64,000 nt of DNA from Lacunisphaera limnophila (lineage in GTDB: Bacteria; Verrucomicrobiota; Verrucomicrobiia; Opitutales; Opitutaceae): positions 3,797,501 through 3,861,500 of the forward strand of contig NZ_CP016094.1 in NCBI RefSeq assembly GCF_001746835.1, given 5' to 3'. The stretch's first letter is position 1. Each line of letters starts with the position of its first letter. Below the pieces are notes generated by a model. It worked only from the letters and a program-made list of their open reading frames with translations, was not told the DNA's origin and did no database searches. The position numbers and the translations under genes are program-made. Positions 1-12,625 of this stretch are shown here, one piece after another.

Positions 1-635
1 GCACGGGCCTTCCATTCTGCTATTTTGGGCTTTCCGCGTTTGTATGAAAACCCTGACGGAAAGAAAACATCTTCAAAGCATGTATCCTTTGCCTCCAGCT
101 TTTGCCCGATATCAGCCAATGCCTCCTGCAGAGCTTCAATATCTGGCTCGTGTGCCATTTGACTCCCGAGGTACTTGGCAAGCGCGCCAGCGATTTCCAA
201 ATCGTCTAATTGTACACGAACATGGTCTTCCGCGGTATATGTGGCAGGAATTACATCAAGGAGCGTTCGGTCGCTCTCGTTGATGGCAACATCCAGCGAA
301 ACCTCATGAGGCCTCGCTTTTGTAGCCTTAGGTTTCCGCTCAATGGGCAGTTGGCTCGCGATAATATCGCGGAAATACGGAATGCTTTCAGCAACAATGA
401 AATCTTCTGCTTCATCACAGTCACGCTCGTCGAGCTCCTGACTTCGCTTCTTAAATATCTCACTGATGGCCATTCTAACGCTCTTAGCTCGCGATGCTTC
501 AGTTTCCATCAAGCGTTGAAATATCTCGGTCACAATAGCACGGGCATCGCCCACGCCTTGGCAGCGTACGGTTTTAATCACTATCCGTTGAGCGATCTGC
601 GCGGATCTGAAGACGCGGAGCTCTAGAGGTTCCAT
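1..635 (-). CDS. Unknown protein, last gene of the leftward island operon (3' end outside window)
   Basis: I do not recognise this protein. An open frame of 211 codons runs from an ATG at 635 to the window edge without a stop. The start lies 28 nt after the stop of the receiver-like gene, with an AAGG about 12 nt upstream. The visible part is charged and mostly helical. Around residues 111-130 it reads VSLDVAINESDRTLLDVIPA, which resembles the region 3/4 linker of sigma-70 factors (SLD...ED..LLD.IPD). The preceding 110 residues do not look like a convincing sigma region 2, so I leave it unnamed. Codon use and base composition match the other island genes. Confidence 0.75.
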   Translation of the reverse strand, partial: MEPLELRVFRSAQIAQRIVIKTVRCQGVGDARAIVTEIFQRLMETEASRAKSVRMAISEIFKKRSQELDERDCDEAEDFIVAESIPYFRDIIASQLPIERKPKATKARPHEVSLDVAINESDRTLLDVIPATYTAEDHVRVQLDDLEIAGALAKYLGSQMAHEPDIEALQEALADIGQKLEAKDTCFEDVFFPSGFSYKRGKPKIAEWKAR

Positions 636-663
636 GGTAGTTTTAGCCTTAAATTTGGTTAAC

Positions 664-2364
664 TTATGTCGACAGTAGCCCCTTGTTCTTCTCGGAGAAG
701 CGAACCCTGACTGGGCTTAGCTTCCCGGCAGCTGACTCATAAAGCTCACTGAGCTCCCGCCAGCCGTCCATACGGGGCAACACATGTTGGCGCAGCTGGG
801 AGCGGAGAGAAGCAACGCATTCGTTTCCGTCAGGGATCTGCTTAAGCAGCAGATGCGCTTCGTTGATATTGTGGATCGCTAGCTTTACATTTGATCCCCA
901 ACGACGAAGTGCTGTGACTAGACTCTTTTTAGCATCATCATCTACATTCTCCGATTGCATCAAGGAATCGACGTTTTCAGCCAGAATTTCCAGCAACTCT
1001 AAATGGTCTTGGTCGTTTTTCCACGCATCCCAAACTGCTCGCAAGTCTTGCCCAGGATTCTGCCTGTACCTGTCGGCAACGACCATGGCTTCAATGTATG
1101 GACAGGACACTACAGTCATCGGGTCAACTTGAAGCGCCCAATAAATTGTGGGTTTAGACTTTCTTACTATGCGAATCCTAGCCTCCGGATTCCAATCCTT
1201 TCGCTCGATTGAAAAAACACCTGGCTGTCTTAATGCAGCTGGTAGCGCGGTGCTATTCTCCTTCTTTAATTCCCCCCACAGTTTGGTGGAGAGATTTGAG
1301 TTCAAGGAATTGAATAATGACCATTCACTAGGTGTTCGTTCCAACACCTCCAATCCGAGTGCCTTCAAGTCAGTGATGGTTTTGTGAGGATTGCTGAGCT
1401 GGGTGCTCGAGCTGATATTCGCTTCAAGCAGGTAGAAGTCGGCGAACGAAAGCCCAGACAGTGCCTTACCCTTCACTACCCCCAGGCGCTTGCTGCATGT
1501 GGCGAGGCTGCCCCGTTGACCATACCTCAGGAAAGCTCTCAACACAGTGGCTGATTCTCCACATTTGGAACTAACAGCAGGAATTTGAATTAATCGGGTA
1601 TCAAAATGCGCCTTCCACATTTCAAGGACGCGATGAGGGTTTACGAGCGCGTGATTGGCAAACCGCAGGTACGGCCAGGCGATATCCGCTAGCCGAAATC
1701 CATCAATCTCCTCGTTCTCGCATGCACCAAGAAAGTCACTAAGAATAAGGTTTTCGTCCGATTTGCGCCGTGCATGAGCTCTAGTTGATGCGATCAAGGC
1801 TTCACCCATCAATTTTGGGCCTGCCTTCTTTAATATCGATCCCGCAATCGAATCATACGCGCTGAATAGCGTGCTCACGACTTCGAGCGAAGCCTCGTGA
1901 TTAAATCCAAAGATCAACTCATCGATATTTTCTTCGCCCTGCTTTTTCCACAACCGCACATTACTATATACCAAGTCCTGACGTGTATTTGAATAAAACA
2001 GGATATGAATACTCTTTGAATTCAGTTCATCCCTGAGGCAGATCAAATCATGGGCGAGCTCGACCCCGTAGGACATTTTTTCCTGCATTGATACACCCTC
2101 GAACCCCGGCGTTCCTGCAGGTATCTGATCCCAGTTCACATCGACTAAAAAGATCGTGTTCTCCCAATCAGACTGAGGAGTAGCCTCAAGGTCAGCCGGC
2201 AAAATGGTCCGAAACTGAACCCCTAAAGAGTCATCTTGGGCCGTCGCCTCAACGCCACTGGGCGAAGGAAGCCACCGATTGTTCATAAATCCGAAGTGGT
2301 CTAGCTTCGGAATACCGGATGCTTCCGGCCGGTCGTCGAGCATTACTATTTGGATGCGTTTCAT
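664..2364 (-). CDS. Response-regulator-like protein: N-terminal receiver-like domain plus large unknown C-terminal domain
   Basis: 566 aa. The N-terminal ~150 residues have the skeleton of a phosphoacceptor receiver: acidic pair D10-D11 after a hydrophobic strand (QIVMLDDR), a candidate phosphoacceptor D75 in IFLVDVNWD, and a S/T-containing strand ILFYSNT (about 122-127). The loop between strands is longer than in CheY-like receivers. The remaining ~400 residues are mainly helical with no HTH or enzyme motif that I recognise, so the output is unknown. I chose the ATG at 2364 because it follows the kinase-like stop by 4 nt and has GAGAAG upstream; an in-frame ATG at 2403 would overlap the kinase gene. 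Probable partner of the upstream kinase-like protein. Confidence 0.75.
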   Translation of the reverse strand: MKRIQIVMLDDRPEASGIPKLDHFGFMNNRWLPSPSGVEATAQDDSLGVQFRTILPADLEATPQSDWENTIFLVDVNWDQIPAGTPGFEGVSMQEKMSYGVELAHDLICLRDELNSKSIHILFYSNTRQDLVYSNVRLWKKQGEENIDELIFGFNHEASLEVVSTLFSAYDSIAGSILKKAGPKLMGEALIASTRAHARRKSDENLILSDFLGACENEEIDGFRLADIAWPYLRFANHALVNPHRVLEMWKAHFDTRLIQIPAVSSKCGESATVLRAFLRYGQRGSLATCSKRLGVVKGKALSGLSFADFYLLEANISSSTQLSNPHKTITDLKALGLEVLERTPSEWSLFNSLNSNLSTKLWGELKKENSTALPAALRQPGVFSIERKDWNPEARIRIVRKSKPTIYWALQVDPMTVVSCPYIEAMVVADRYRQNPGQDLRAVWDAWKNDQDHLELLEILAENVDSLMQSENVDDDAKKSLVTALRRWGSNVKLAIHNINEAHLLLKQIPDGNECVASLRSQLRQHVLPRMDGWRELSELYESAAGKLSPVRVRFSEKNKGLLST

Positions 2365-2368
2365 GTGT

Positions 2369-4102
2369 TTATTTCTTCTCGCATGCTGGATGCCGATACT
2401 CAAACCCGCGGGTGCCTACATTTCCCGGGATTTGAAGAGTGGTTCTGATTCGGGGTGATGCGCTCGTCGTTTGGAACAGTTCGTACTCTGGGCCTTGCCA
2501 CTGTGCGGTCGCCGCAATCCGCTGGGCATAACCCAAGCCAGTGTTTGCGCTACCAGTTTCATCTGCGAGCTGCTTTTGGAGCTCCAAAGCGCCATCCATA
2601 TCTGTTTCGTTGTGCCAGGTAATTTTCAAACTGTTGGCTGTTGTTATTTCAGCATAGACCCAGACAATTGACTGATGCTTTTTGTGAAAGGCCGCGTTTC
2701 GCATCGCCGCGCTTAGAGCAAACTCTATGTCCCCCGGGTAACCTAGAAAGCTAGCGTTCCAATTCGCGCCCTGTGGCTCATGTAGCTTAAGCTCATCGGG
2801 ATCGTAAACTAGCCAAAGGCCCCAGACATCACTCAGGATTTTGCTAAGACTCGACCAAACAGGCTTTGCCCCCCCTTCTCGTCTTCCACCGACGCTGACG
2901 TAGAATGCCCTCGCCTTGAAAGCAGCAGCCTGGGCTAGTGACGAAACTCTAGCAGGATCAACCAACGCACCCGAGATAGAATAGTCGAGATCCGCCAGTG
3001 TTTGCCCAGTTGATACGCCGCGCTGCCTAATGGATTTCAGAAGGGAGTGGGCTTCATGCAGTTTATTTATACCAAGCGAAGTTTTGATTCGGCCTAAATC
3101 ATTGACGATTTCGTGCATCATCTGCCTTGCGGTTTCTCGCATACCCGCGTTTTCGCCTGCCAATCTGCTCTGCTTAGCGACAAATACAGCTGTATTAAGC
3201 AATGAGCTTAGGCGGTCTGCGACATTGTAGCAGCGACGAATCACAAAATCATCGATCGGTGCTTCCGGGTCGATCACCACCGTCAATCCTGAATTGCCCA
3301 GTTGCTCGCCAAGAATCTCTCGCTTAACGGCCCATAGCGGCCTCGGCATCACCAATAGGATGTTCCCCAAGGGCAGCAGGGCGGCAACGTCGTTGAGGTA
3401 TTCTTTATCATTTCCTACGGACGCTGCTACAATATCGATCTGGAGCGCTTCCTCCGCGTCCTGTACCTTCCCTTTTGGAAGTCCCGAGCAAGTGATACTG
3501 ACATCACGCTTGGCCCGCTTTGCACTGGCGGTTTTTTTCAGGACAGCCGTCCAATTGGATTCTTGCTCGAGAATATCGACTGATTTCCATTCGCCGTCGC
3601 CATCAAGTGTTGGTTCGGCAATTTCATCTAGCATTCGCCCTTCATCAGAGGCCGTTGCAGTGGAGATGCCCACCTCTACGAGGAAAAGATTTTGATCCTC
3701 ACTTAGCTTTCTTTGGGCGGGTTTTTTTGAACTGAAGGTTAACGCGGCCGAGCTCTTGCCACTATAGTGGTTGGCTACTTTTTGATAAAATGACTCCCCG
3801 CGATTTCGAGCGGATAAAGTCACGTAACCGAACCTTTTGATCATCCGCAAATGGTCAGTACCCTGACCACAGTTCACTAATGCCGGACTGCGGATGTCTA
3901 GGCCGTGGGCTTTGGGTGAAATGGCGGCATATAGAACTAAACGGATTGTCGGAGGCAGGTACCCCTCACGAAGACAGCGGATCAGGAACGCGTTCGCGAT
4001 ACCTGGCGCTCTGGCGGCGATATCCTCAATGCCCCTGATGTCGGCCGGTAACTCCAGCGGTTGGTGATAAACCCAAAGGTCGTCCTTTATGGTCGCCGAC
4101 AT
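2369..4102 (-). CDS. Atypical sensor histidine-kinase-like ATPase
   Basis: 577 aa, no membrane segment apparent, so probably cytoplasmic. Residues 1-300 form a sensor or partner domain that I do not recognise. A histidine-phosphotransfer-like helix follows (ARQMMHEIVNDLG, H330). A GHKL-type ATPase occupies about 415-565: N-box around N469 (AAMRNAAFHKK), D/N-rich segment ITWHNETD (about 494-501) and G-box TGLGYA (521-526). The spacing between the H-box and N-box, and the weak H-box, are unlike classical kinases. The gene starts 38 nt after the ABC permease stop and is followed 4 nt later by the receiver-like gene, so the pair is probably co-transcribed with the transporter. Confidence 0.75.
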   Translation of the reverse strand: MSATIKDDLWVYHQPLELPADIRGIEDIAARAPGIANAFLIRCLREGYLPPTIRLVLYAAISPKAHGLDIRSPALVNCGQGTDHLRMIKRFGYVTLSARNRGESFYQKVANHYSGKSSAALTFSSKKPAQRKLSEDQNLFLVEVGISTATASDEGRMLDEIAEPTLDGDGEWKSVDILEQESNWTAVLKKTASAKRAKRDVSITCSGLPKGKVQDAEEALQIDIVAASVGNDKEYLNDVAALLPLGNILLVMPRPLWAVKREILGEQLGNSGLTVVIDPEAPIDDFVIRRCYNVADRLSSLLNTAVFVAKQSRLAGENAGMRETARQMMHEIVNDLGRIKTSLGINKLHEAHSLLKSIRQRGVSTGQTLADLDYSISGALVDPARVSSLAQAAAFKARAFYVSVGGRREGGAKPVWSSLSKILSDVWGLWLVYDPDELKLHEPQGANWNASFLGYPGDIEFALSAAMRNAAFHKKHQSIVWVYAEITTANSLKITWHNETDMDGALELQKQLADETGSANTGLGYAQRIAATAQWQGPEYELFQTTSASPRIRTTLQIPGNVGTRGFEYRHPACEKK

Positions 4103-4140
4103 TACTAAATGCCTACCGCCGACCCGGATTCATGGCGAGC

Positions 4141-4917
4141 TTACTGTTCATGAGACGCCATTGGGAGCCAACGCAGGAGCCGGCGCTCAGCCACCGTGAC
4201 AAGTTGGTTCAATGTGATACCAACGGAACCGGTAACTAAGATGGCCGCATAGGTTTCCGGTATCCGGTACGCTGATTGAAAGTCGTAGATCTTACGCCCG
4301 AGGCCATTTTCACTGATGCCGATAAACATCTCGCCAGCTATGCTGAGTGCCAACCCGTAGCCTGCTGCTATCCTGATGCCGGCAAGGATATGAGGGAGTG
4401 CCTCCCAAAACAGAACTTGGGTGCCGGTTGCCCATGCTCCCAGGCCAAGAATCTTAGCCTGCTGCAAGCGTCGGCGGTTGGCTAATCGGGCGCCACTGAT
4501 CGTATTGATCAGGATAACCAACAACGCAGGGTATGCCGCCATCGCCACGAGAGATCCTTGCCCGACGCCTACCAATATCAAAAAGAGCGGGAATAATGCT
4601 GTGGGGGGAACCGAACGCATCGCGTGAAGCGGCCCTTCGATCGCCGCATATATGCGCTCATGATAGCCAAGCCATAGTCCGAACGGGATCCCGAAAGCGG
4701 TCGCAATGACCAACGCCATCAAAAGGCGCAGGAGGGTTGCCACGAGATCAATCAACAACCCAGACGGCGTTAACAGTTCGACTAAGGCCCCGGCAACACT
4801 CAACGGGGTTGGCAGGATTATCGGATCGACGAACTTACCTGCCGTGAGCCCGAACCAGATGATCAGGATACACGCAAATGTGGCCAAAGCACGAAGGGGA
4901 CTTCTAGAGATGGCCAT
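4141..4917 (-). CDS. ABC transporter permease, NitT/TauT (SsuC/TauC) type
   Basis: 258 aa integral membrane protein of the binding-protein-dependent transport family, forming the inner-membrane channel of the island importer. About six hydrophobic segments are visible. The EAA-like loop lies around AKILGLGAWATGTQVLFWEALPHILAGIRIA, in the position expected for coupling to the ATPase. The ATG at 4917 overlaps the end of the ATPase gene by 14 nt; an ATG at 4974 would add 19 polar residues deep inside that gene and is less likely. The substrate cannot be read from the sequence; relatives carry nitrate, sulfonates, taurine or thiamine precursors. Confidence 0.85.
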   Translation of the reverse strand: MAISRSPLRALATFACILIIWFGLTAGKFVDPIILPTPLSVAGALVELLTPSGLLIDLVATLLRLLMALVIATAFGIPFGLWLGYHERIYAAIEGPLHAMRSVPPTALFPLFLILVGVGQGSLVAMAAYPALLVILINTISGARLANRRRLQQAKILGLGAWATGTQVLFWEALPHILAGIRIAAGYGLALSIAGEMFIGISENGLGRKIYDFQSAYRIPETYAAILVTGSVGITLNQLVTVAERRLLRWLPMASHEQ

Positions 4918-5677
4918 GGCGTAGGATCTCGATAAGTGGTTCTTGGGCTTCCTGATATTCACGCGATTCCTCATTCCGAGGGAACGCGAGAGGAACTGAA
5001 AAGTCTCCCAAGACTCGGACGGGGCGTTGCCCGATAATTATGCAACGATCCGCAAGTGCCATCGCATCAGAAAGATTATGCGTGATAAGCAGAATAGTCA
5101 TCTGACCACGGGTGGAGAGCTGACGCAGGCCATGGGTGATTACATCCTTGGTCCGTCGATCCAGCATCGAGAAATTCTCGTCTAGAATTAGGCACTTGGG
5201 CTTCCAGGAGAGGCTGCGCGCGACTGCCAAGCGCTGAAGTTCTCCTCCAGATACGTGGGCCGGAAAGCTGTTGGCCAGATGTTGAAGCCCAAATAATTCG
5301 AGCAATTCATCAGTACGGCTATCAATCTCGGTCTTGTTCCAGCCCAGCGACTCCAAGGGCCACATGATATTCTTGCGAATCGAATGCCAGGGGAAGACCG
5401 CATTCATGGGTGCTTGGTCAATGTAAACGATATCGGACAACCGATCCGTAAAGTCTGTCCGCCACGTGATCGCAGCAGGCTCGTGCGTGAGCGTCCCGGC
5501 CAGCAGTTTGGCGAAGGTGCTTTTCCCACTTCCACTGCCGCCCATGAGGGCGACGAACTGACCTGCCATCAATTTTAAAGAGAAATCCCTAAAGAGCAGA
5601 TCGTGATCATCAACCAGCTTTGACTTGTAGCCAAAACTGAGTCTTTCGACCACGACTGCGGGCGCAGCGGGATTCAT
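4904..5677 (-). CDS. ABC transporter ATP-binding protein, NitT/TauT type
   Basis: 257 aa ATPase of the island importer. Walker A GGSGSGKS is at 46-53, followed by the ABC signature VSGGELQRLAVARS, Walker B LILDENFSMLD and a switch-histidine region LLITHNLSDAMALADR, all intact. The length is usual for SsuB/TauB. The start codon overlaps the stop of the binding-protein gene in an ATGA, and the end overlaps the permease start, which supports translational coupling. Base composition is clearly lower in G+C than the nitrate transporter ATPases further right, so this set is a separate acquisition, not a local duplicate. Confidence 0.9.
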   Translation of the reverse strand: MNPAAPAVVVERLSFGYKSKLVDDHDLLFRDFSLKLMAGQFVALMGGSGSGKSTFAKLLAGTLTHEPAAITWRTDFTDRLSDIVYIDQAPMNAVFPWHSIRKNIMWPLESLGWNKTEIDSRTDELLELFGLQHLANSFPAHVSGGELQRLAVARSLSWKPKCLILDENFSMLDRRTKDVITHGLRQLSTRGQMTILLITHNLSDAMALADRCIIIGQRPVRVLGDFSVPLAFPRNEESREYQEAQEPLIEILRHGHL

Positions 5678-6648
5678 TTTGTCGGCGCCAAAAGGGCAGC
5701 GGCATCCACCGACTTCGGCAGTTCGCCAATTTCTCTCATCAGATCACTGAATTGCTGCACGTTCTTAAGGTCAGTTTCCGTGGGCAAAACATCAGCGACA
5801 AGGTTGACATGTGGTATGACCTCGGGGGCTAGCTTGGTAAATCCGGAAAGCGAGTTCCGTGCCCCAGCCGGATCGTTGCGTGCGAGTAAAACCGCCTGTC
5901 CCAATGTTTCACTGAAACGCTTGGCGGCTTCCGGGTGTTCAGTCTCGAATTTGCGAGAAATCACAGAGCATGAGATCGGGCTGGGCTCGAGCATGGCGAC
6001 GTAGACAGAGCCGAAAAGCTTGCGGTATTCTTTTTGCTTAAGGAGCGCCGTGAGTGTGGGCTCATAGGCAAACAACGCGTCAATGGCACCCGATTGTAGA
6101 GCTGAAATATGGCTGGATGGCGGGAGCTGAATCAATTCGACGGATGCTGGATCAATTCCGCGGCTTTTCAGGAAGGCTTTGAGCAAATTTAGCGCCGTAG
6201 TCCCGGGATAAAGGCCGACCTTATGACCCTTAAGGTCATCCAGTTTCTTCAAGGCACTGTCCGCTCGGGTAACGATACTATCGTACGGGGAAGCCTCGCT
6301 CATTTTGCTGTGCAGGATGATTCGCACTCGCCCTGGAAATTGTGCCTCCAGGTTGAGAATGGGCACCATGGAAACCCCAGTTACCGCATCAACCTGATTA
6401 GCCACCAATGCGTTGATCATCTCGTTCGCGCTGGTGAAGAGTTTGGCTTCGACCTCGATACCGTTGCTTTTGAACAGACCCTGTGTCTGGCCCAAGAATA
6501 ACGGCACATTCAACACCACAGGTGCGTACGCCACTTTGATTGATACTGGCGGTTGGCTATCAGCAGGCAAAGCTTGTTGCCCAAAGGCCTGCCAAGCGGA
6601 TCCAAGCCAAAGGGTGATGGCCAATAATGAATGCGATAGTTTTTTCAT
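5674..6648 (-). CDS. Periplasmic substrate-binding protein, NMT1/SsuA-like
   Basis: 324 aa. A signal peptide is evident (KKLSHSLLAITLWLGSAWQAFG, cleavage near residue 24), so it is exported. The mature part follows the NMT1/THI5-like pattern: strand VSIKVAYAPVVLNVPLFLGQTQGLF, hinge segment LDDLKGHKVGLYPGTTALNLL, and LQSGAIDALFAYEPTLTALL. It captures the ligand for the adjacent permease and ATPase. The ligand is unknown; the family spans nitrate, sulfonates, pyrimidine precursors and aromatic acids. It begins 11 nt after the SRPBCC gene and overlaps the ATPase start by 4 nt. Confidence 0.85.
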   Translation of the reverse strand: MKKLSHSLLAITLWLGSAWQAFGQQALPADSQPPVSIKVAYAPVVLNVPLFLGQTQGLFKSNGIEVEAKLFTSANEMINALVANQVDAVTGVSMVPILNLEAQFPGRVRIILHSKMSEASPYDSIVTRADSALKKLDDLKGHKVGLYPGTTALNLLKAFLKSRGIDPASVELIQLPPSSHISALQSGAIDALFAYEPTLTALLKQKEYRKLFGSVYVAMLEPSPISCSVISRKFETEHPEAAKRFSETLGQAVLLARNDPAGARNSLSGFTKLAPEVIPHVNLVADVLPTETDLKNVQQFSDLMREIGELPKSVDAAALLAPTK

Positions 6649-6659
6649 ACTGTGTGAGG

Positions 6660-7154
6660 CTATGACTGCGTTACCGCGGCGGAATCTGAATCATTCGCGG
6701 CTTGCGACCGGCTGATGTTCATCCGTGCAGCATCAAATACCTTGGCGATTGCTCGCTTCATGTACCATTCCACCAGATTCGAGATCAGTGGCAGGCCGAG
6801 GATCCCCAGACAATCGAACCGGCAGCTCACCCGAAGCTGGCTTCCACGACCATCGGGCTCAAATTCGTACATTACATCGTGAGGTAATGGGAGTGGCCCA
6901 CGCTCAGCAGGACTGCTGCTCATGCCCCAAGTCTGACCTTCGGCATAGTGTGTGATATGCCCGAGGTATTTTTGCGGCCAACCAAGGATCGTGTGGGTCT
7001 CCGCAACCGGCGTGCCGATTCTTAAGGTAGTCGGGGCAAAAAAAGAACGCAGCATCGGTACATTGCCCGAGACCAGCCTAGGGTGCCCTGCGGCGTGCCA
7101 GAGACCTGCCACGCCCGTGTCAAATCGCTGAGATAGTGTTACGCTTTTCTGCAT
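6660..7154 (-). CDS. SRPBCC (START-like) domain protein, first gene of the island operon
   Basis: 164 aa. The pattern of a start-domain fold is recognisable: an N-terminal strand MQKSVTLSQRFDTGVAGLW, a middle sheet with HDVMYEFEPDGRGSQLRVSCRFDC, and a C-terminal helix LISNLVEWYMKRAIAKVFDAARMN. Such proteins bind hydrophobic or aromatic ligands, so it may handle what the adjacent ABC importer brings in (inference). I chose the ATG at 7154; upstream in-frame codons to 7265 would run through the 22-bp palindrome at 7233-7254 and encode a non-domain-like, Cys-rich stretch. No Shine-Dalgarno sequence is apparent. Confidence 0.7.
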   Translation of the reverse strand: MQKSVTLSQRFDTGVAGLWHAAGHPRLVSGNVPMLRSFFAPTTLRIGTPVAETHTILGWPQKYLGHITHYAEGQTWGMSSSPAERGPLPLPHDVMYEFEPDGRGSQLRVSCRFDCLGILGLPLISNLVEWYMKRAIAKVFDAARMNISRSQAANDSDSAAVTQS

Positions 7155-7232
7155 TTTAACGCGAAATAGCCGCCAACAGTTTGCCGAGGTCGGCCCCGAG
7201 CATTGAGAGGCAGTGATACAACATATGGGTAA

Positions 7233-7254
7233 GGCGCAGACAATTGTCTGCGCC
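7233..7254. promoter_or_regulatory. Perfect 22-bp palindrome, putative operator copy 1
   Basis: Perfect inverted repeat with core GACAATTGTC, flanked by GGCGCA on the left and TGCGCC on the right. It lies 79 nt upstream of the SRPBCC start, the head of the leftward operon. Two related copies stand before the other two island units. A dimeric regulator site is the simplest reading; no T-tract follows, so it is not a terminator. Confidence 0.6.
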
Positions 7255-7327
7255 CCGTATGGCAACCCATTTTGATCAAATGATACTTACGTATTCGTTG
7301 ATTTCGTGTTACTTATGAGTGAATCGA

Positions 7328-7651
7328 TCACCAGGTAATCGGCGGCGGCATGCGCGGCAGTTCAATGGGTTTAAGCATACCATTGAAGTTGGAAGCGAGG
7401 AGGCGCCCAGAAACGGGATCCTCCAGGTACCCACCCTTCATCACACCGCACGAGTTGCCAAAGGAGTCTTTGACGGCACCGCCAGCGTGCTCGAACAATT
7501 TCACGGTGGGACTCACATAGTGAACTTTGGGAAACACGGGCGCGAGCATGGAGAGAGGGCTCAGGTCGATGGTCTCGTTGGTAGACTTCTTGCGAATGCG
7601 ACTGGCAGGAGGGTTCAGGCTTTCGAGGAGTTCTTGATAGTTGTAGCTCAT
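7328..7651 (-). CDS. Orphan 107-aa protein of the island regulon
   Basis: I do not recognise this protein. It starts MSYNYQELLESLNPPASRIR and ends in a proline-rich tail LPRMPPPITW. The middle carries a glycine/cysteine segment (AGGAVKDSFGNSCGVMKGG). It has no signal peptide or membrane span. The stop lies 173 nt upstream of the SRPBCC start, on the same strand. A palindrome related to the operon operator sits 37 nt upstream of the start (7688-7699). Coding character is supported by a clean frame and amino-acid composition, but no ribosome-binding site is obvious. Roles as peptide precursor, chaperone or small regulator are all possible and unproven. Confidence 0.6.
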   Translation of the reverse strand: MSYNYQELLESLNPPASRIRKKSTNETIDLSPLSMLAPVFPKVHYVSPTVKLFEHAGGAVKDSFGNSCGVMKGGYLEDPVSGRLLASNFNGMLKPIELPRMPPPITW

Positions 7652-7687
7652 AGAGGTGAGGGTTGAATTGTTACCAGCCTGAGGCCC

Positions 7688-7699
7688 GGATAATTGTCC
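7688..7699. promoter_or_regulatory. GGATAATTGTCC imperfect palindrome, putative operator copy 2
   Basis: A 12-bp near-palindrome sharing AATTGTCCG with the 7866 copy and the GACAATT core (as GGACAATTATCC on the other strand) with both copies. It is 37 nt upstream of the leftward 107-aa gene and 196 nt before the rightward small-gene unit, so it could serve the former. Confidence 0.5.
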
Positions 7700-7865
7700 G
7701 TTCTGTTTTTCATGCAGATTGGCCCAAAGGATGTGTGGTACGCACCTTACCCCCAGGCCGCGTCAACCAGCCGACACCGGCGTAGTGAGCACACCTGTAC
7801 GAGGCCAAGCGCCCGGAACATCAACCATCCGAATTGCCTACCCATCTCGGGCGTCGAGGTGGGGA

Positions 7866-7881
7866 GACAATTGTCCGCGCC
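7866..7881. promoter_or_regulatory. GACAATTGTC operator copy 3, before the small-peptide unit
   Basis: Ten-base palindrome GACAATTGTC followed by CGCGCC, matching the right half of the 7233 copy at 15 of 16 positions. It ends 14 nt before the start codon at 7896, so a bound protein would block transcription or the site lies in the leader. Confidence 0.55.
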
Positions 7882-7895
7882 ATAGTAAGGACACC

Positions 7896-8051
7896 ATGAA
7901 GCAACGGATCTCTAATCGCCCTGCGACCCTCTTGGACGAGGAGGAGAACGAGACTAATCTCGTGGTGCAAATAGAGGAAAGCGGAGACCGCGACACCAAC
8001 TTTGAAACTCAGCCTTGTGAAGCCTCAGCCCCACAAGACGAAGCCCTATAG
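7896..8051 (+). CDS. Small acidic protein (51 aa), first gene of the small-peptide unit
   Basis: 51 aa, starting MKQRISNRPATLLDEEENET and strongly acidic thereafter (LVVQIEESGDRDTNFETQPCEASAPQDEAL). It has one cysteine and no membrane span. An AAGG 5-8 nt upstream and the immediately preceding operator copy support the ATG at 7896 over an in-frame ATG at 7719, whose extension reads as low-complexity basic sequence. No family recognised. It could be a leader or immunity-like partner of the Cys-rich peptide 81 nt downstream, but this is only positional inference. Confidence 0.5.
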   Translation: MKQRISNRPATLLDEEENETNLVVQIEESGDRDTNFETQPCEASAPQDEAL

Positions 8052-8132
8052 CGAATTTGTAGTCTTCCGTTCGACCTGAATGAGCGGACACAGCAAAGCC
8101 CCGAAACCTAAATCATAAATACAGGAGATCCG

Positions 8133-8231
8133 ATGAACCTCGATCACACGACCCCACTGTCGCCTACTCGCAACTGCGATGGCAACTGCGGCTCCGGCGG
8201 CAGCGCCTGTGACGGCGACTGCGACGGCTGA
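8133..8231 (+). CDS. Cys-rich 32-aa peptide with two C-D-G-x-C motifs
   Basis: A very short gene with unusually strong signals: AGGAG 7 nt before the ATG at 8133, and a good intrinsic terminator 24 nt after the stop. The product begins MNLDHTTPLSPTRN and ends with the core CDGNCGSGGSACDGDCDG. Four cysteines in two CDGxC pairs with a glycine-rich spacer suggest a metal-binding peptide or a ribosomally made, modified peptide precursor. No maturation enzyme (radical SAM, YcaO, LanB/M) is visible in the window. It probably shares a transcript with the 51-aa gene. Confidence concerns existence, not function. Confidence 0.6.
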   Translation: MNLDHTTPLSPTRNCDGNCGSGGSACDGDCDG

Positions 8232-8254
8232 AGGCCCTGAAGTGAAATAGTCCG

Positions 8255-8291
8255 CCACACCTCCGCTGTGCGAAGGTGTGGCTTTTTAATT
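8255..8291 (+). terminator. Intrinsic terminator of the small-peptide unit
   Basis: Stem CCACACCT (8255-8262) pairs perfectly with AGGTGTGG (8274-8281), with an 11-nt loop, followed by CTTTTTAATT. It closes the transcript carrying the 51-aa and 32-aa genes. Confidence 0.8.
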
Positions 8292-8512
8292 GTGCTAGTT
8301 GGCTTGAGCTCGATGACCTGTGGGCTGCAGCACTGCCTTGAAAATGCTTGGCTGCCTGGTGGATGGGCCACCCGATATTCGCTACGCTTCGAGCTCCCAG
8401 GAGGCACATGAACCCGTGCCCCACCCCTCCTGCGGAAAGTTCACACCAGGTGCAAAGATAGCTTACCAGATCCTGAATCGGCATGCCGGATGCCGCCAAT
8501 TGGCTAATGTCC

Positions 8513-8543
8513 AAAAAAAATCCCCGGATGATTAATCCGGGGA
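8513..8543 (-). terminator. Intrinsic terminator after tRNA-Glu
   Basis: On the minus strand the hairpin formed by TCCCCGGAT (8521-8529) and ATCCGGGGA (8535-8543) is followed by eight T residues (A8513-8520 on the plus strand). It lies 45 nt downstream of the tRNA 3' end and should end its transcript. Confidence 0.8.
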
Positions 8544-8588
8544 AATCTGTGTGGGATTTGTGTGGAGAACCTAGCTCTCCTCTGAAAT

Positions 8589-8663
8589 TGGTGCCCCCAC
8601 GGGGAATCGAACCCCGGTTTGAAGAATGAGAATCTCCTGTCCTAGCCGCTAGACGATAGGGGC
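8589..8663 (-). tRNA. tRNA-Glu, anticodon CUC
   Basis: 75 nt including an encoded CCA end. Acceptor arm GCCCCTA pairs with TGGGGGC (one G-U pair). The D-arm is GTCTAGCGGCTAGGAC. Anticodon stem GGAGA/TCTTC encloses loop TTCTCAT, giving anticodon CUC for GAG codons. T-arm CGGGG-TTCGATT-CCCCG is perfect. The 3' end faces the lower-G+C region, consistent with use as an island integration site. Confidence 0.95.
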
Positions 8664-8723
8664 AAAAAACTGAAAGAACCAAAAAGCGCACCAGACGGCC
8701 GGCCGTCAAGCGCGCAGTCAAAA

Positions 8724-9143
8724 TCAGACGTTGAACAATTCCTCGGCCTTGAAGAAGCGCGCCAGCTCGATCTTGGCGTTTTCGTCGCTGTCCGAGGCAT
8801 GGACCACGTTCTTCATCATCTCGGTGCCAAAATCACCGCGGATGGTGCCCTTGGCCGCCTTGCGGGAGTCCGTGGGCCCGAGCAGGTCACGCACTTTCGC
8901 CACGATGTTGTCGCCCTCGAGCGCCATCATGATGACGGGACGCGAGCTCATGAAGCCCTCGATCTCCGGGTAAAACGGCTTGCTCGCCACATGCGCGTAG
9001 TGCTCGCGCAGCAGGGCGGGCGTCAGGACGCCCATTTTGCAACCGACGACGGTGAAACCGGCGCTCTCGAAGCGGCTAAGGACTTCGCCGACGTGGCGCT
9101 GGGCCATACAGTCAGGCTTAAAGATAACGAATGTTCTCTGCAT
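8724..9143 (-). CDS. ndk: Nucleoside diphosphate kinase
   Basis: 139 aa, the usual length. It transfers the gamma phosphate of ATP to NDPs through a phosphohistidine. The sequence shows QRTFVIFKPD at the N-terminus (ATP-binding Lys), the Kpn-loop region PEIEGFMSSRPVIMMALEG, and the active-site motif NVVHASDS with the catalytic His. The ATG at 9143 places MQRTFVIF at the family's normal start; an upstream ATG at 9164 would add seven atypical residues. It stands alone between the tRNA and the photolyase operon. Confidence 0.95.
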   Translation of the reverse strand: MQRTFVIFKPDCMAQRHVGEVLSRFESAGFTVVGCKMGVLTPALLREHYAHVASKPFYPEIEGFMSSRPVIMMALEGDNIVAKVRDLLGPTDSRKAAKGTIRGDFGTEMMKNVVHASDSDENAKIELARFFKAEELFNV

Positions 9144-9201
9144 AATAAGCTCTCCACCATACAAACGCAGGGTGCCTTGGAAAGTCCCGATTTATATTTC
9201 T

Positions 9202-9359: not shown

Positions 9360-10949
9360 TCAGGTAAGCGCCAACAATCCCGGTTCACCCGGCCCCACGG
9401 GTGGCACCCCGCCATTCGCCCGGATCGCCCCCGCCTGTTGCCTGATCGCCGCGAGCTCGGCCGGCTTCAGTCGCGCGAGATTTTTGACCTGCAGCGCCAT
9501 GCGCGGATTCGCCGCCAGCCGTTTTTCGTGACGCTGCAGAAAATCCCAGTAGAGCGTCGTAAACGGACACGCCTCCGGCCCCGTCGCCTTGGCCGGATCA
9601 AACCGGCAGCCCGCACAATAATTGCTCATCCGCTGGATGTACTTCCCCGTCGCGACATACGGCTTCGAGGCCATGATGCCGCCATCGGCGTATTGCGACA
9701 TGCCGAGCGTGTTGGGCAGCTCAACCCACTCCACGGCGTCCACATAAACGGCCAGGTACCACTCGTGCACCTTGCGCGGTTCCACCCCCAGCATCAACCC
9801 ATAGAGCCCCGTGACCATCAGCCGCTGGATGTGATGGGCGTACCCGAGTTCCAGTGACTGGCGGATCGCCTGGCTGAGGCACACCATGGGTACATCCCCC
9901 GTCCAGTAGAATTGCGGCAAGGCGCCGTGCGCCTCGAGCGCATTCAACTCCACGTAACCCGGCATGGATCGCCAGTACACCCCGCGCACGTACTCCCGCC
10001 ACCCGAGGATCTGCCGGATGAATCCCTCGGCCGCCGCCAACGGCACCCGTCCCTTCCTCCACGCCTGTTCTGCAGCGCCGACCACTTCCCGCGGATCGAG
10101 CAGCTTCAGGTTCATCGCCGCCGCCAACCGCGAATGATAAAGCCACGCCTCCTCGGTCCACATGGCATCCTGATACTGGCCGAATTTCTCCAACCGGTGC
10201 GCAATGAAATCCTGCAGCGCCACCCGCGCCTCCACCGTCGTCACCGGCCAGTCAAACTGGTCCAGCTTGCCCGGATGATCCGCGAACACCCGGTTCACCA
10301 GGTCGATCACCCCGCGGGTGATCGCGTCCGGCTCGAATTTCACCGGTGCCTTCAGCCCCGCCGGTCCGCCCGCCAGCAGGCTGCCCCGGTTCTCCGGATC
10401 AAAATTCCACTGCCCACCCTCCGGCTCGCCCGCCGCATCGAGCAGCACCCCGTGCTTCCGCCGCATCTCCCGATAAAAATATTCCATCCGCAGCTGCTTG
10501 CGCCCGCGCGCATGCGTGGCGAAATCCGCGCGCGTGGCGTAGAAGTGCCGGTCATCCCGCACCTCCAGCGGACACCCCGCGGCCTTCGCCGCCTGCACCA
10601 GCGCCTCCCCCACCCGCCAGTCGCCCGGCTCCGTCAGGATCAGCCGCTGCGGCTTCAGCCGCGCGATCGCGCGCGTCAGCTCCTCCGCCAGCCCGCCGCC
10701 CTTCCCGCTTTCCTCGAGCTCACGATAATGCACCGTGCGGCCGGCCGCGCGCAGCGCCTCCCGGTGATGCCGCATCGCGGACAAAAACAACGCAATGCGC
10801 GGCCGGCCGGACCACACGTGCGTGGATTCCTCCGCGACTTCCGCCATCCACACGGCGTCCTGCGCGCAATCAAAGCCGTCGAATGCCGAAGCGGCGAGGT
10901 CGAGCTGGTCGCCGAGCACCAGAATCAGATGACGAAGCGGTCGGGGCAT
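9360..10949 (-). CDS. Fe-S cluster bacterial cryptochrome/(6-4) photolyase (PhrB-like)
   Basis: 529 aa, family length. It belongs to the deoxyribodipyrimidine photolyase-related group that repairs (6-4) photoproducts using FAD and carries a [4Fe-4S] cluster. The N-terminal Rossmann part starts [13 protein letters not shown]. The FAD-binding part has [32 protein letters not shown] and [17 protein letters not shown]. Cluster ligands are the expected cysteines: one in [10 protein letters not shown] and three in [11 protein letters not shown]...[12 protein letters not shown]. It follows the second photolyase on the same strand after a 6-nt spacer and precedes the DUF2256 gene. Confidence 0.9.
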
Positions 10950-10955
10950 GCGACG

Positions 10956-12422
10956 CTAGGGCTTGGCCCGCCGGATGGTCGCCAGCGCCGCCAAGGCCGC
11001 ATCCCGCGCCTCGCCATGGTCGACCAGCGGATGCGGATAGGTCCGCCCCAAGGTCACCCCCGCGGAGGCCAGCACATCCATCGGCGCTTCCCAGGGTTGG
11101 TGGATAAACTCCGCCGGCAGCCGCGCCAGCTCCGGCACCCACCGGCGCACATAGTCGCCCTCGGGATCAAATTTCAGACCCTGGAGGATCGGGTTGAAGA
11201 TCCGGAAATACGGCGCGGCATCCGCCCCGCACCCGGCCGTCCACTGCCAGCCGAGCGTGTTGCTCGCCAGATCGGCGTCCACGAGCGTGTCCCAAAACCA
11301 GTCCGCGCCGGCCTGCCAGGAGATCCGCAGGTGCTTCACGAGAAACGACGCCACGATCATCCGCACGCGGTTGTGCATCCACCCGGTCGCCCAGAGCTGG
11401 CGCATGCCGGCATCCACGATCGGGTAACCCGTCCGGCCCTGCTGCCAGGCGCGCAGTTTTACCGAGTCCTGCACCCACGGGAACGCCGCAAAATCCATCC
11501 GCAACGGCGCCTCGGGCGTGTGCGGAAAATGAAACAGCAGGTGATGCGCGAACTCCCGCCAACCCACCTCGCTCAGGAAAACCTGCGCCCCGCGATTCGG
11601 CGGAAAAACGCCGCTGCCCTTCGTTGTCGCCTTCACCGCCGCCCAGATCTGGCGCGGGCCGATGTCCCCGAAATGCAAATGCGCCGACAGCGCCGAGGTC
11701 CCCAGCACATCGGGCCGGTTGCGCCGGTCGGCATAGTCATCCATCGCCCCGGCCGTGAATTGCTTCAACCGGGACATCGCCCCCGCTTCACCCGGCGCCG
11801 CGGCTGCCGCAAATCCCCCGTCCCACGGGATCTTCGGGAGCAACCCGAGGGCCCCCAGTTCCAAGGAGCGCGGCCATGACATCGGGCTCGGCAGGTCCCC
11901 GCCTCGCAGCTTCACGGGTTCCTCCACGGCCAAGGTCAGGCAATGCTTCCAGAAGGGCGTGAAGACCTGGAACGGGGCCCCCGCCTTGTTCCGGATCGTG
12001 TGCGGCTCGAACAGCAGGGCCGAGTTGAAACTCAGGGCTTCGACGTCGAGCCCCGCTTTCAAACCCTTGTCCCGCGCAATCACCGCTGGCTCGTACCGCC
12101 GGTTCCAGTAAACCGCGTCCGCCCCCGTGGCCTTGATCAAATCGCGCAGCACCGCCCCGCTCTCACCGCGAGCCAGCACCAGGCGCGATCCGCGCGACCG
12201 CAGCGCCTGATCCAGCGCTGCCAACGAGTGATGCAACCACCACCGGGACGCGCCACCCATCGGCCACCGCCCCTCGCCGGCGTCATCCAAAATATACACC
12301 GGAATCACCGGACGCCCCCGCGTCACCGCCGCCGCCAGCGCTGGGTTGTCCTGCACCCGCAGATCCTGCCGGAACCACACAAGCGTGGCCGGCTGGGGGG
12401 TGGACGTTGCAGCGGAGGTCAT
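10956..12422 (-). CDS. phrB: CPD photolyase (deoxyribodipyrimidine photolyase)
   Basis: 488 aa. It splits cyclobutane pyrimidine dimers with light via FADH-. The antenna-domain start is ATLVWFRQDLRVQDNPALAAA. The catalytic domain carries LSEVGWREFAHHLLFHFPH, GRTGYPIVDAGMRQLWATGWMHNRVRM and DADLASNTLGWQWTAGCG, which are the FAD and DNA contact segments of class I enzymes. The ATG at 12422 is preferred: the in-frame extension to 12620 runs through a REP-type repeat pair and is not domain-like. Forms a light-repair cluster with the downstream genes. Confidence 0.92.
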   Translation of the reverse strand: MTSAATSTPQPATLVWFRQDLRVQDNPALAAAVTRGRPVIPVYILDDAGEGRWPMGGASRWWLHHSLAALDQALRSRGSRLVLARGESGAVLRDLIKATGADAVYWNRRYEPAVIARDKGLKAGLDVEALSFNSALLFEPHTIRNKAGAPFQVFTPFWKHCLTLAVEEPVKLRGGDLPSPMSWPRSLELGALGLLPKIPWDGGFAAAAAPGEAGAMSRLKQFTAGAMDDYADRRNRPDVLGTSALSAHLHFGDIGPRQIWAAVKATTKGSGVFPPNRGAQVFLSEVGWREFAHHLLFHFPHTPEAPLRMDFAAFPWVQDSVKLRAWQQGRTGYPIVDAGMRQLWATGWMHNRVRMIVASFLVKHLRISWQAGADWFWDTLVDADLASNTLGWQWTAGCGADAAPYFRIFNPILQGLKFDPEGDYVRRWVPELARLPAEFIHQPWEAPMDVLASAGVTLGRTYPHPLVDHGEARDAALAALATIRRAKP

Positions 12423-12546
12423 TGTCTGTAAAACGATTGGGGCAACGCGCCGGACGCAATTAATGTCACGTGAGTGCACCTTCCCCAATTTGTGGGCAGC
12501 CCGCTCGCGGGCGCTTGACCGGGACGCGCCTCCCGATCGCCAAACT

Positions 12547-12625
12547 GTAGGGCGGGGTCGCCGAACCCCGCCTTTGTTCGATCGCGGTATCACCCTCAAG
12601 TCGGGGTTCGGCGACCCCACCCTAC
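12547..12625. repeat. REPIN-like pair, family A (GTAGGGCGGGGTC...)
   Basis: One copy of the 26-bp family A element (12547-12572, arms GGCGGGGT and ACCCCGCC) is followed by an inverted copy (12601-12625). The pair lies between the photolyase start and the glgA end, the usual intergenic placement. Related copies occur at 18380, 41784 and 47931. Confidence 0.85.

Follow-up and report, generated by a model that had tools for sequence, protein, structure and literature searches.

The window analysed here is a stretch of 64 kb (positions 3,797,501 to 3,861,500) of the single 4,199,284-base contig, NZ_CP016094.1, that makes up the genome of Lacunisphaera limnophila, whose strain IG16b is a freshwater Verrucomicrobium (PMC5303756). 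Its left end holds a tight operon, borne on an integrated genomic island, in which the genes of an ABC importer are followed by those of two orphan proteins, one kinase-like (P0002) and one receiver-like (P0001), while three copies of a palindrome stand before the operon and its small neighbours. Seven minus-strand open reading frames (ORFs) occur in the order given by an initial annotation of the sequence: an SRPBCC-like gene (gene 1), the importer genes for a substrate-binding protein (SBP), an ATPase and a permease (genes 2 to 4), P0002 (gene 5), P0001 (gene 6), and gene 7. Genes 1 and 2 are 11 nt apart, genes 2 and 3 share a stop-start overlap (5674-5677), and genes 3 and 4, with the permease start taken as 4917, overlap at 4904-4917 (the permease frame offers a second possible ATG at 4974). 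The following gaps measure 38 nt (permease to P0002), 4 nt (P0002 to P0001), and 28 nt (P0001 to gene 7). The run had been described as a seven-gene unit; its direction, order, and spacing stand, but it does not end at base 1 of the window. Gene 7 (246 aa) extends 106 nt further left and overlaps by 4 nt an SDR oxidoreductase gene lying just outside the window, giving at least eight genes, which may well be co-transcribed. A 107-aa gene in the same direction is found 173 nt upstream of gene 1.

The palindrome RGACAATTRTCY is present at five places in the 4.2-Mb genome (seven strand-wise rows), compared with none for a reversed-pattern control. Three of these places (sites A to C) are packed into 639 bp; every one of them stands before a gene and is followed by G(C/G)GCC (GSGCC) in the direction of that gene; the two remaining places are inside long open frames. 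When one mismatch is allowed, the window contains six strand-wise matches, where shuffles average 0.19 and never exceed 2, and a repeat finder recovers the same palindrome family unprompted. Because the palindrome precedes the importer operon, the 107-aa gene, and a divergent pair of small genes (51 and 32 aa), it suggests that these three units probably form one regulon, with the palindrome as the predicted operator; no other observation speaks as strongly for such a regulon. The 32-aa ORF encodes four Cys and a tail rich in DG and GG, and is followed by a hairpin and a T-run at 8254-8282; neither small gene has an NCBIfam match at E ≤ 5. In the phylum, the 32-aa peptide was matched at E ≤ 0.01 in three of 288 genomes, namely its own and two others, and the two non-self matches were judged on inspection to be chance, so that a family of such Cys-rich peptides was not retained. 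A riboswitch upstream of the operon was also rejected, the tRNA being the sole element in window 6500-8800 to reach its gathering score, and the one viral contig carrying the 17-nt site was considered and set aside.

An integrated island of about 86 kb ends at a tRNA-Glu gene, and window 1-8588 is the part of it next to that gene. The insertion lies at the end of the tRNA gene, a 20-bp repeat flanks the island, and a relative offers a natural empty site: in a genome of the same genus (G207), the flanks (genome 3718659 and 3806079) align with only 78 bp between them. In another genome (G122), about 4 kb separates the nearest aligned sides (genome 3713650 and 3806086). On the left, the alignment with G207 stops 1,000 bp short of the repeat, which places that edge only to within about 1 kb. 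A 472-aa integrase-like ORF, which we take from its motif to resemble a tyrosine recombinase, adjoins the far repeat copy; it has no Pfam match at E ≤ 0.001 and no NCBIfam match at E ≤ 5. The GC content is 0.48-0.56 in 1-kb bins over window 1-9000 and 0.61-0.72 beyond, while island bins of 4 kb range from 0.51 to 0.64 and those sampled outside it from 0.60 to 0.71. The contrast is thus clear at the tRNA-Glu end and weaker in the part that carries a Dpd cluster, described below. Genomic islands were predicted in general terms for the strain, and the passages concerned make no mention of this one (PMC5303756).

The importer is, judging by its families, an ordinary one, and its labelling as NitT/TauT-type held up. 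The SBP (PF13379, 7.2e-20; PF09084, 1e-18), the ATPase (PF00005, 1.2e-23), and the permease (PF00528, 4.7e-14) all score above the Pfam cut-offs, the ATPase and permease families being general ones. The SBP comes closest to the SsuA models and to proteins with a sulfonate-binding annotation, yet its scores for the named models SsuA, TauA, and SaoX stay under their cut-offs (TIGR01728 SsuA_fam in NCBIfam: 1.5e-34, 119.5 bits, cut-off 163.5). At E ≤ 1e-10 it is matched in 3 of 38 genomes, its own and two others, at 33% and 28% identity. The eighth gene belongs clearly to the SDR family (PF13561, 2e-52). The SRPBCC label of gene 1, by contrast, came from a motif reading and was not borne out: PF10604 gives E = 0.05 and 14.3 bits against a cut-off of 27.4, no NCBIfam model matches, and a plasmid search at E ≤ 10 yields four records at E 3-10. 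Gene 7 was considered as a sigma-70 factor on account of a linker-like phrase and rejected, 23 of 300 shuffles having scored higher than gene 7 against a profile built from 23 of the genome's 27 sigma hits (the four weakest dropped). The working control for this profile, a 192-aa island ORF outside it, scored 42.6 bits. Gene 7 has six plasmid records at E 2-9 and no confirmed IMG/VR match. As an observation apart, the 192-aa ORF (genome 3769655-3770233) resembles a sigma factor by that own-genome score, while remaining below the Pfam cut-off.

P0002 begins with about 300 residues that match nothing. Further on, it presents an H-box-like HEIVND at residue 330, an N-box-like RNAAFH at 468, and a G-box-like NTGLGYA at 520. 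This trio, in order, is found in 15 of 5000 shuffles and in none of the 38 other island-region ORFs picked (at least 250 aa), compared with 19 of the 30 known HATPase_c proteins used (taken from 73 matches in the genome). A stricter earlier pattern had caught only 2 of the 30, and was loosened for these counts. Comparison with PDB sequences gives weak hits only (E 0.27). In a low-confidence model built without relatives, helices are predicted at 319-342, 349-364, and 456-472, strands at 478-486 and 492-499, then helices at 502-515 and 522-530 and a strand at 551-558; this order would be compatible with a DHp plus Bergerat layout, and is too weak to count.

P0001 carries, within residues 7-125, VMLDDR at 7, FLVDVN at 72, and ILFYSN at 121, i.e., the order acidic pair, phospho-Asp, and Ser/Thr; its C-terminal part, about 400 residues, is without any match. 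When anchored at the N-terminus, the receiver pattern is found in none of 5000 shuffles, and it is present in seven of eight canonical receivers. Hits among PDB sequences are weak (E 0.77), and Foldseek with the P0001 model returns nothing at E ≤ 0.001 (best 0.25). Profile searches with the two proteins brought no family to light: beyond Pfam, neither is matched in PHROGs at E ≤ 5, nor, at E ≤ 1, in PADLOC or NCBIfam. From their motifs, P0002 and P0001 may be named kinase-like and receiver-like, and no more.

The pair also stands alone among the genomes searched. Across 387 phylum genomes, P0002 (at E ≤ 0.001) and P0001 (at E ≤ 0.01) are matched only in their own genome, and phylum searches of 194 genomes each likewise give self only. 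At E up to 1, P0002 has matches listed in 29 of the 387 genomes; the 28 non-self ones (E 0.018 to 0.74) were judged to be chance, being short pieces, several with stops, as seen at six loci that were translated. A run of P0002 against the fetched loci alone, a tiny search space, gave 4e-4 as its lowest E, for a stretch of 37 residues. Scans of GTDB contigs gave 19 and 9 pattern stretches and no confirmed relative, a single-protein scan reaching close relatives only. No plasmid match was found at E ≤ 0.01 (one weak record each at E ≤ 10, E 0.5 and 2), none in phages at E ≤ 1, and none confirmed in IMG/VR. The gene set is unusual, as had been proposed, and was found in no other genome searched. 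Because the locus sits in acquired DNA, the absence of the set from relatives can be accounted for. Searches of open-licence literature on signalling/importer combinations and on the strain turned up no description of the operon, which is weak evidence of absence.

Table 1. Positions of the operon genes, palindromic sites, small genes, and island end, in window coordinates unless stated.
Feature	Position	Strand	Basis or remark
Gene 1, SRPBCC-like, 164 aa	6660..7154	-	Open frame; label weak; TTG start at 7265 also open
Gene 2, SBP, NMT1/SsuA type, 324 aa	5674..6648	-	PF13379, PF09084, TIGR01728
Gene 3, ABC ATPase, 257 aa	4904..5677	-	PF00005
Gene 4, ABC permease	4141..4917 (start 4917 or 4974)	-	PF00528
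Gene 5 (P0002), kinase-like, 577 aa	2369..4102	-	Motifs only
Gene 6 (P0001), receiver-like, 566 aa	664..2364	-	Motifs only
Gene 7, in-window part of 246-aa gene	1..635; genome 3797395-3798135	-	Sigma-70 reading rejected
Palindromic site A	7238..7249	-	83 nt before gene 1 ATG
Palindromic site B	7688..7699	-	36 nt before 107-aa gene
Palindromic site C	7865..7876	+	19 nt before 51-aa gene
107-aa gene	7328..7651	-	NCBIfam match at chance level only, E = 0.26
51-aa divergent gene	7896..8051	+	ATG after AAGGA; longer TTG-start frame from 7719 also open
32-aa Cys-rich peptide ORF	8133..8231	+	AGGAG (Shine-Dalgarno-like) upstream
tRNA-Glu (CTC), likely integration site	8589..8663	-	3' end carries the 20-bp repeat
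Island end, 20-bp repeat of tRNA-Glu 3' end	8589..8608		Second copy at genome 3719659, 86,430 bp away

The integrase-side half of the island carries the Dpd (7-deazaguanine-in-DNA) cluster, at genome 3732868-3759657; some 37 kb separate it from the closer end of the operon. Nine of the ten island proteins scanned match Dpd families: DpdA, DpdB (twice), DpdC, DpdD, DpdE, DpdG, DpdH, and a DpdJ-DpdK fusion of 1709 aa; no DpdF or DpdI turned up in this set of ten. FolE2, QueC, PTPS (QueD-type), and radical-SAM (QueE-type) genes of the preQ0 type accompany them, so that DpdA and DpdB occur here together with restriction-type and preQ0 genes, as in a Dpd system. The PADLOC scan at E ≤ 1 gave nothing for the in-window part of gene 7 or for gene 1 with its longer start, as for the pair, and a 549-aa island ORF also has no PADLOC match. 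Other cargo was noted by eye: phosphonate-biosynthesis-like genes at genome 3786043-3790673 (PEP mutase-, phosphonopyruvate decarboxylase-, and aminotransferase-like, and HAD), two ADP-ribosylglycohydrolase-like ORFs (genome 3771243-3772226 and 3777159-3778265), and PnuC- and Nudix-like ORFs some kilobases from the latter. Just outside the island, two adjacent photolyase/cryptochrome-like genes lie at window 9360-12620, again by eye.

The best overall reading of these data, held tentatively and at somewhat less than even confidence, is that the island bears a self-contained regulon in which an importer and a kinase-like/receiver-like relay share a palindromic operator. In its most likely form, regulation would be linked to uptake through a putative mechanism and exerted by a very divergent pair resembling a two-component system. 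A small organic solute would enter through the importer and could be bound or altered by the SRPBCC-like protein and the SDR enzyme; P0002 would read the solute or its product and signal to P0001, and P0001, alone or with gene 7, would set transcription through the predicted operator. The initial annotation was mostly right in what it observed, the gene order, and partly so in its interpretation. Its proposal that the importer, the SRPBCC protein, and the signalling pair act together is favoured by the shared upstream palindrome, and a step in composition within the operon speaks against it. A bolder version, in which genes 5 to 7 form a new signalling family on a mobile, Dpd-bearing island, with a lysine-less receiver-like protein and a new output domain controlling the importer operon and the Cys-rich peptide via a GGACAATTGTCC-type operator, seems quite improbable.

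Several observations weigh against this regulon reading. The compositional step is one of them: the GC content at third codon positions (GC3) is 0.58-0.62 in genes 1-4, the importer block, and 0.49-0.54 in genes 5-8, so that two blocks may have been joined in the operon, a mild argument against a long common history. The kinase pattern, drawn up post hoc once P0002 had been seen, misses 11 of the 30 known proteins used; it also hit none of 61 other long frames in the window, and as these frames include a known HATPase_c match, it is insensitive. No Pfam model matches P0002 at E ≤ 5, nor does the protein figure among the 73 PF02518 (HATPase_c) matches of the genome at E ≤ 10, and a profile built from 30 of those 73 proteins scores it among shuffles. 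The kinase label keeps its motif trio, which exceeds the shuffles, and lacks a family match. The receiver label fares similarly, its motifs being above chance only by their N-terminal position, since the pattern placed anywhere in the sequence occurs in 361 of 5000 shuffles and in three other island ORFs. The lysine is missing by eye from its usual receiver place, P0001 has no Pfam match at E ≤ 5 and is not among the 104 PF00072 (Response_reg) matches of the genome at E ≤ 0.001, and a profile from 8 of those 104 receivers gave a chance match only (residues 496-537). The AlphaFold models of both proteins, made without relatives, have a pLDDT of 36-37 and are too poor to use. As to the operator, the palindrome pattern was derived from the three sites that it then counts, sites A and C become coding if gene 1 and the 51-aa gene use their longer TTG starts (they are intergenic with the ATG starts), and the palindrome evidence names no binding protein. 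Promoter-like sites in window 1-9200 number 6 compared with 7.0 in shuffles, and terminator-like sites 11 compared with 9.5 (standard deviation 2.9).

A rather unlikely alternative is an ordinary uptake operon with two co-transcribed orphan proteins that have no signalling role and whose motifs are fortuitous. The lack of any profile match for either protein agrees with it, as does the dependence of the receiver motif on position; the rarity of the kinase trio, both in shuffles and among the other island-region ORFs, does not, and the layout of the P0002 model would point the same way if it were firm enough to count. Also unlikely is a defence or conflict module, made up of the pair and perhaps gene 7, which came to lie behind an unrelated importer operon on an island that bears defence genes. 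In its favour, the pair was found in no other genome searched and has a lower GC3 than the importer genes, and the Dpd cluster on the same island gives circumstantial support to the defence-like relay that had been suggested at the outset. That cluster is, however, far from the operon, PADLOC recognises none of the proteins scanned, Pfam reveals no toxic or nuclease domain, and the shared palindrome precedes the importer operon rather than the pair.

Very improbable is a peptide cluster, in which the 51-aa and 32-aa genes would make a modified or metal-binding peptide that the importer takes up and the pair senses. The Cys-rich 32-aa ORF, with its Shine-Dalgarno-like sequence, hairpin, and T-run behind a shared palindrome, is what invites this idea; no peptide-modifying enzyme is recognised alongside, NCBIfam and the phylum genomes offer no family, terminator-like sites are no commoner than in shuffles, and the importer is of the small-molecule type. 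Under the preferred reading, of a regulon built around importer and relay, two-component-type regulation would, if the pair truly signals, extend to proteins undetected by the profiles used here, and would be coupled to uptake by a mobile element. With its three sites, the palindrome offers a small and directly testable regulon, and the island provides a Verrucomicrobium case of a Dpd DNA-modification cluster, one for which a relative keeps the natural empty site.

Compared with known systems, the locus shares with SsuA/TauT-type (NitT/TauT) importers an SBP, ATPase, and permease of general families, with an SBP nearest to SsuA, and differs from them by its coupling to two orphan proteins and an SDR gene and by an SBP score below the SsuA, TauA, and SaoX cut-offs. 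Like the genes of two-component systems, those of the pair are adjacent, P0002 has H-, N-, and G-box-like motifs in order, and P0001 has DD/D/S-like motifs at its N-terminus, whereas neither protein has a recognised sensor, DHp, HATPase_c, or REC domain, the receiver lysine is missing, and the output domain of P0001 belongs to no matched family. As in Dpd islands, a Dpd cluster and preQ0-type genes are carried on the same element; unlike the proteins of that cluster, the operon proteins scanned have no Dpd match, and the operon lies at the tRNA-Glu end, the cluster in the integrase-side half.

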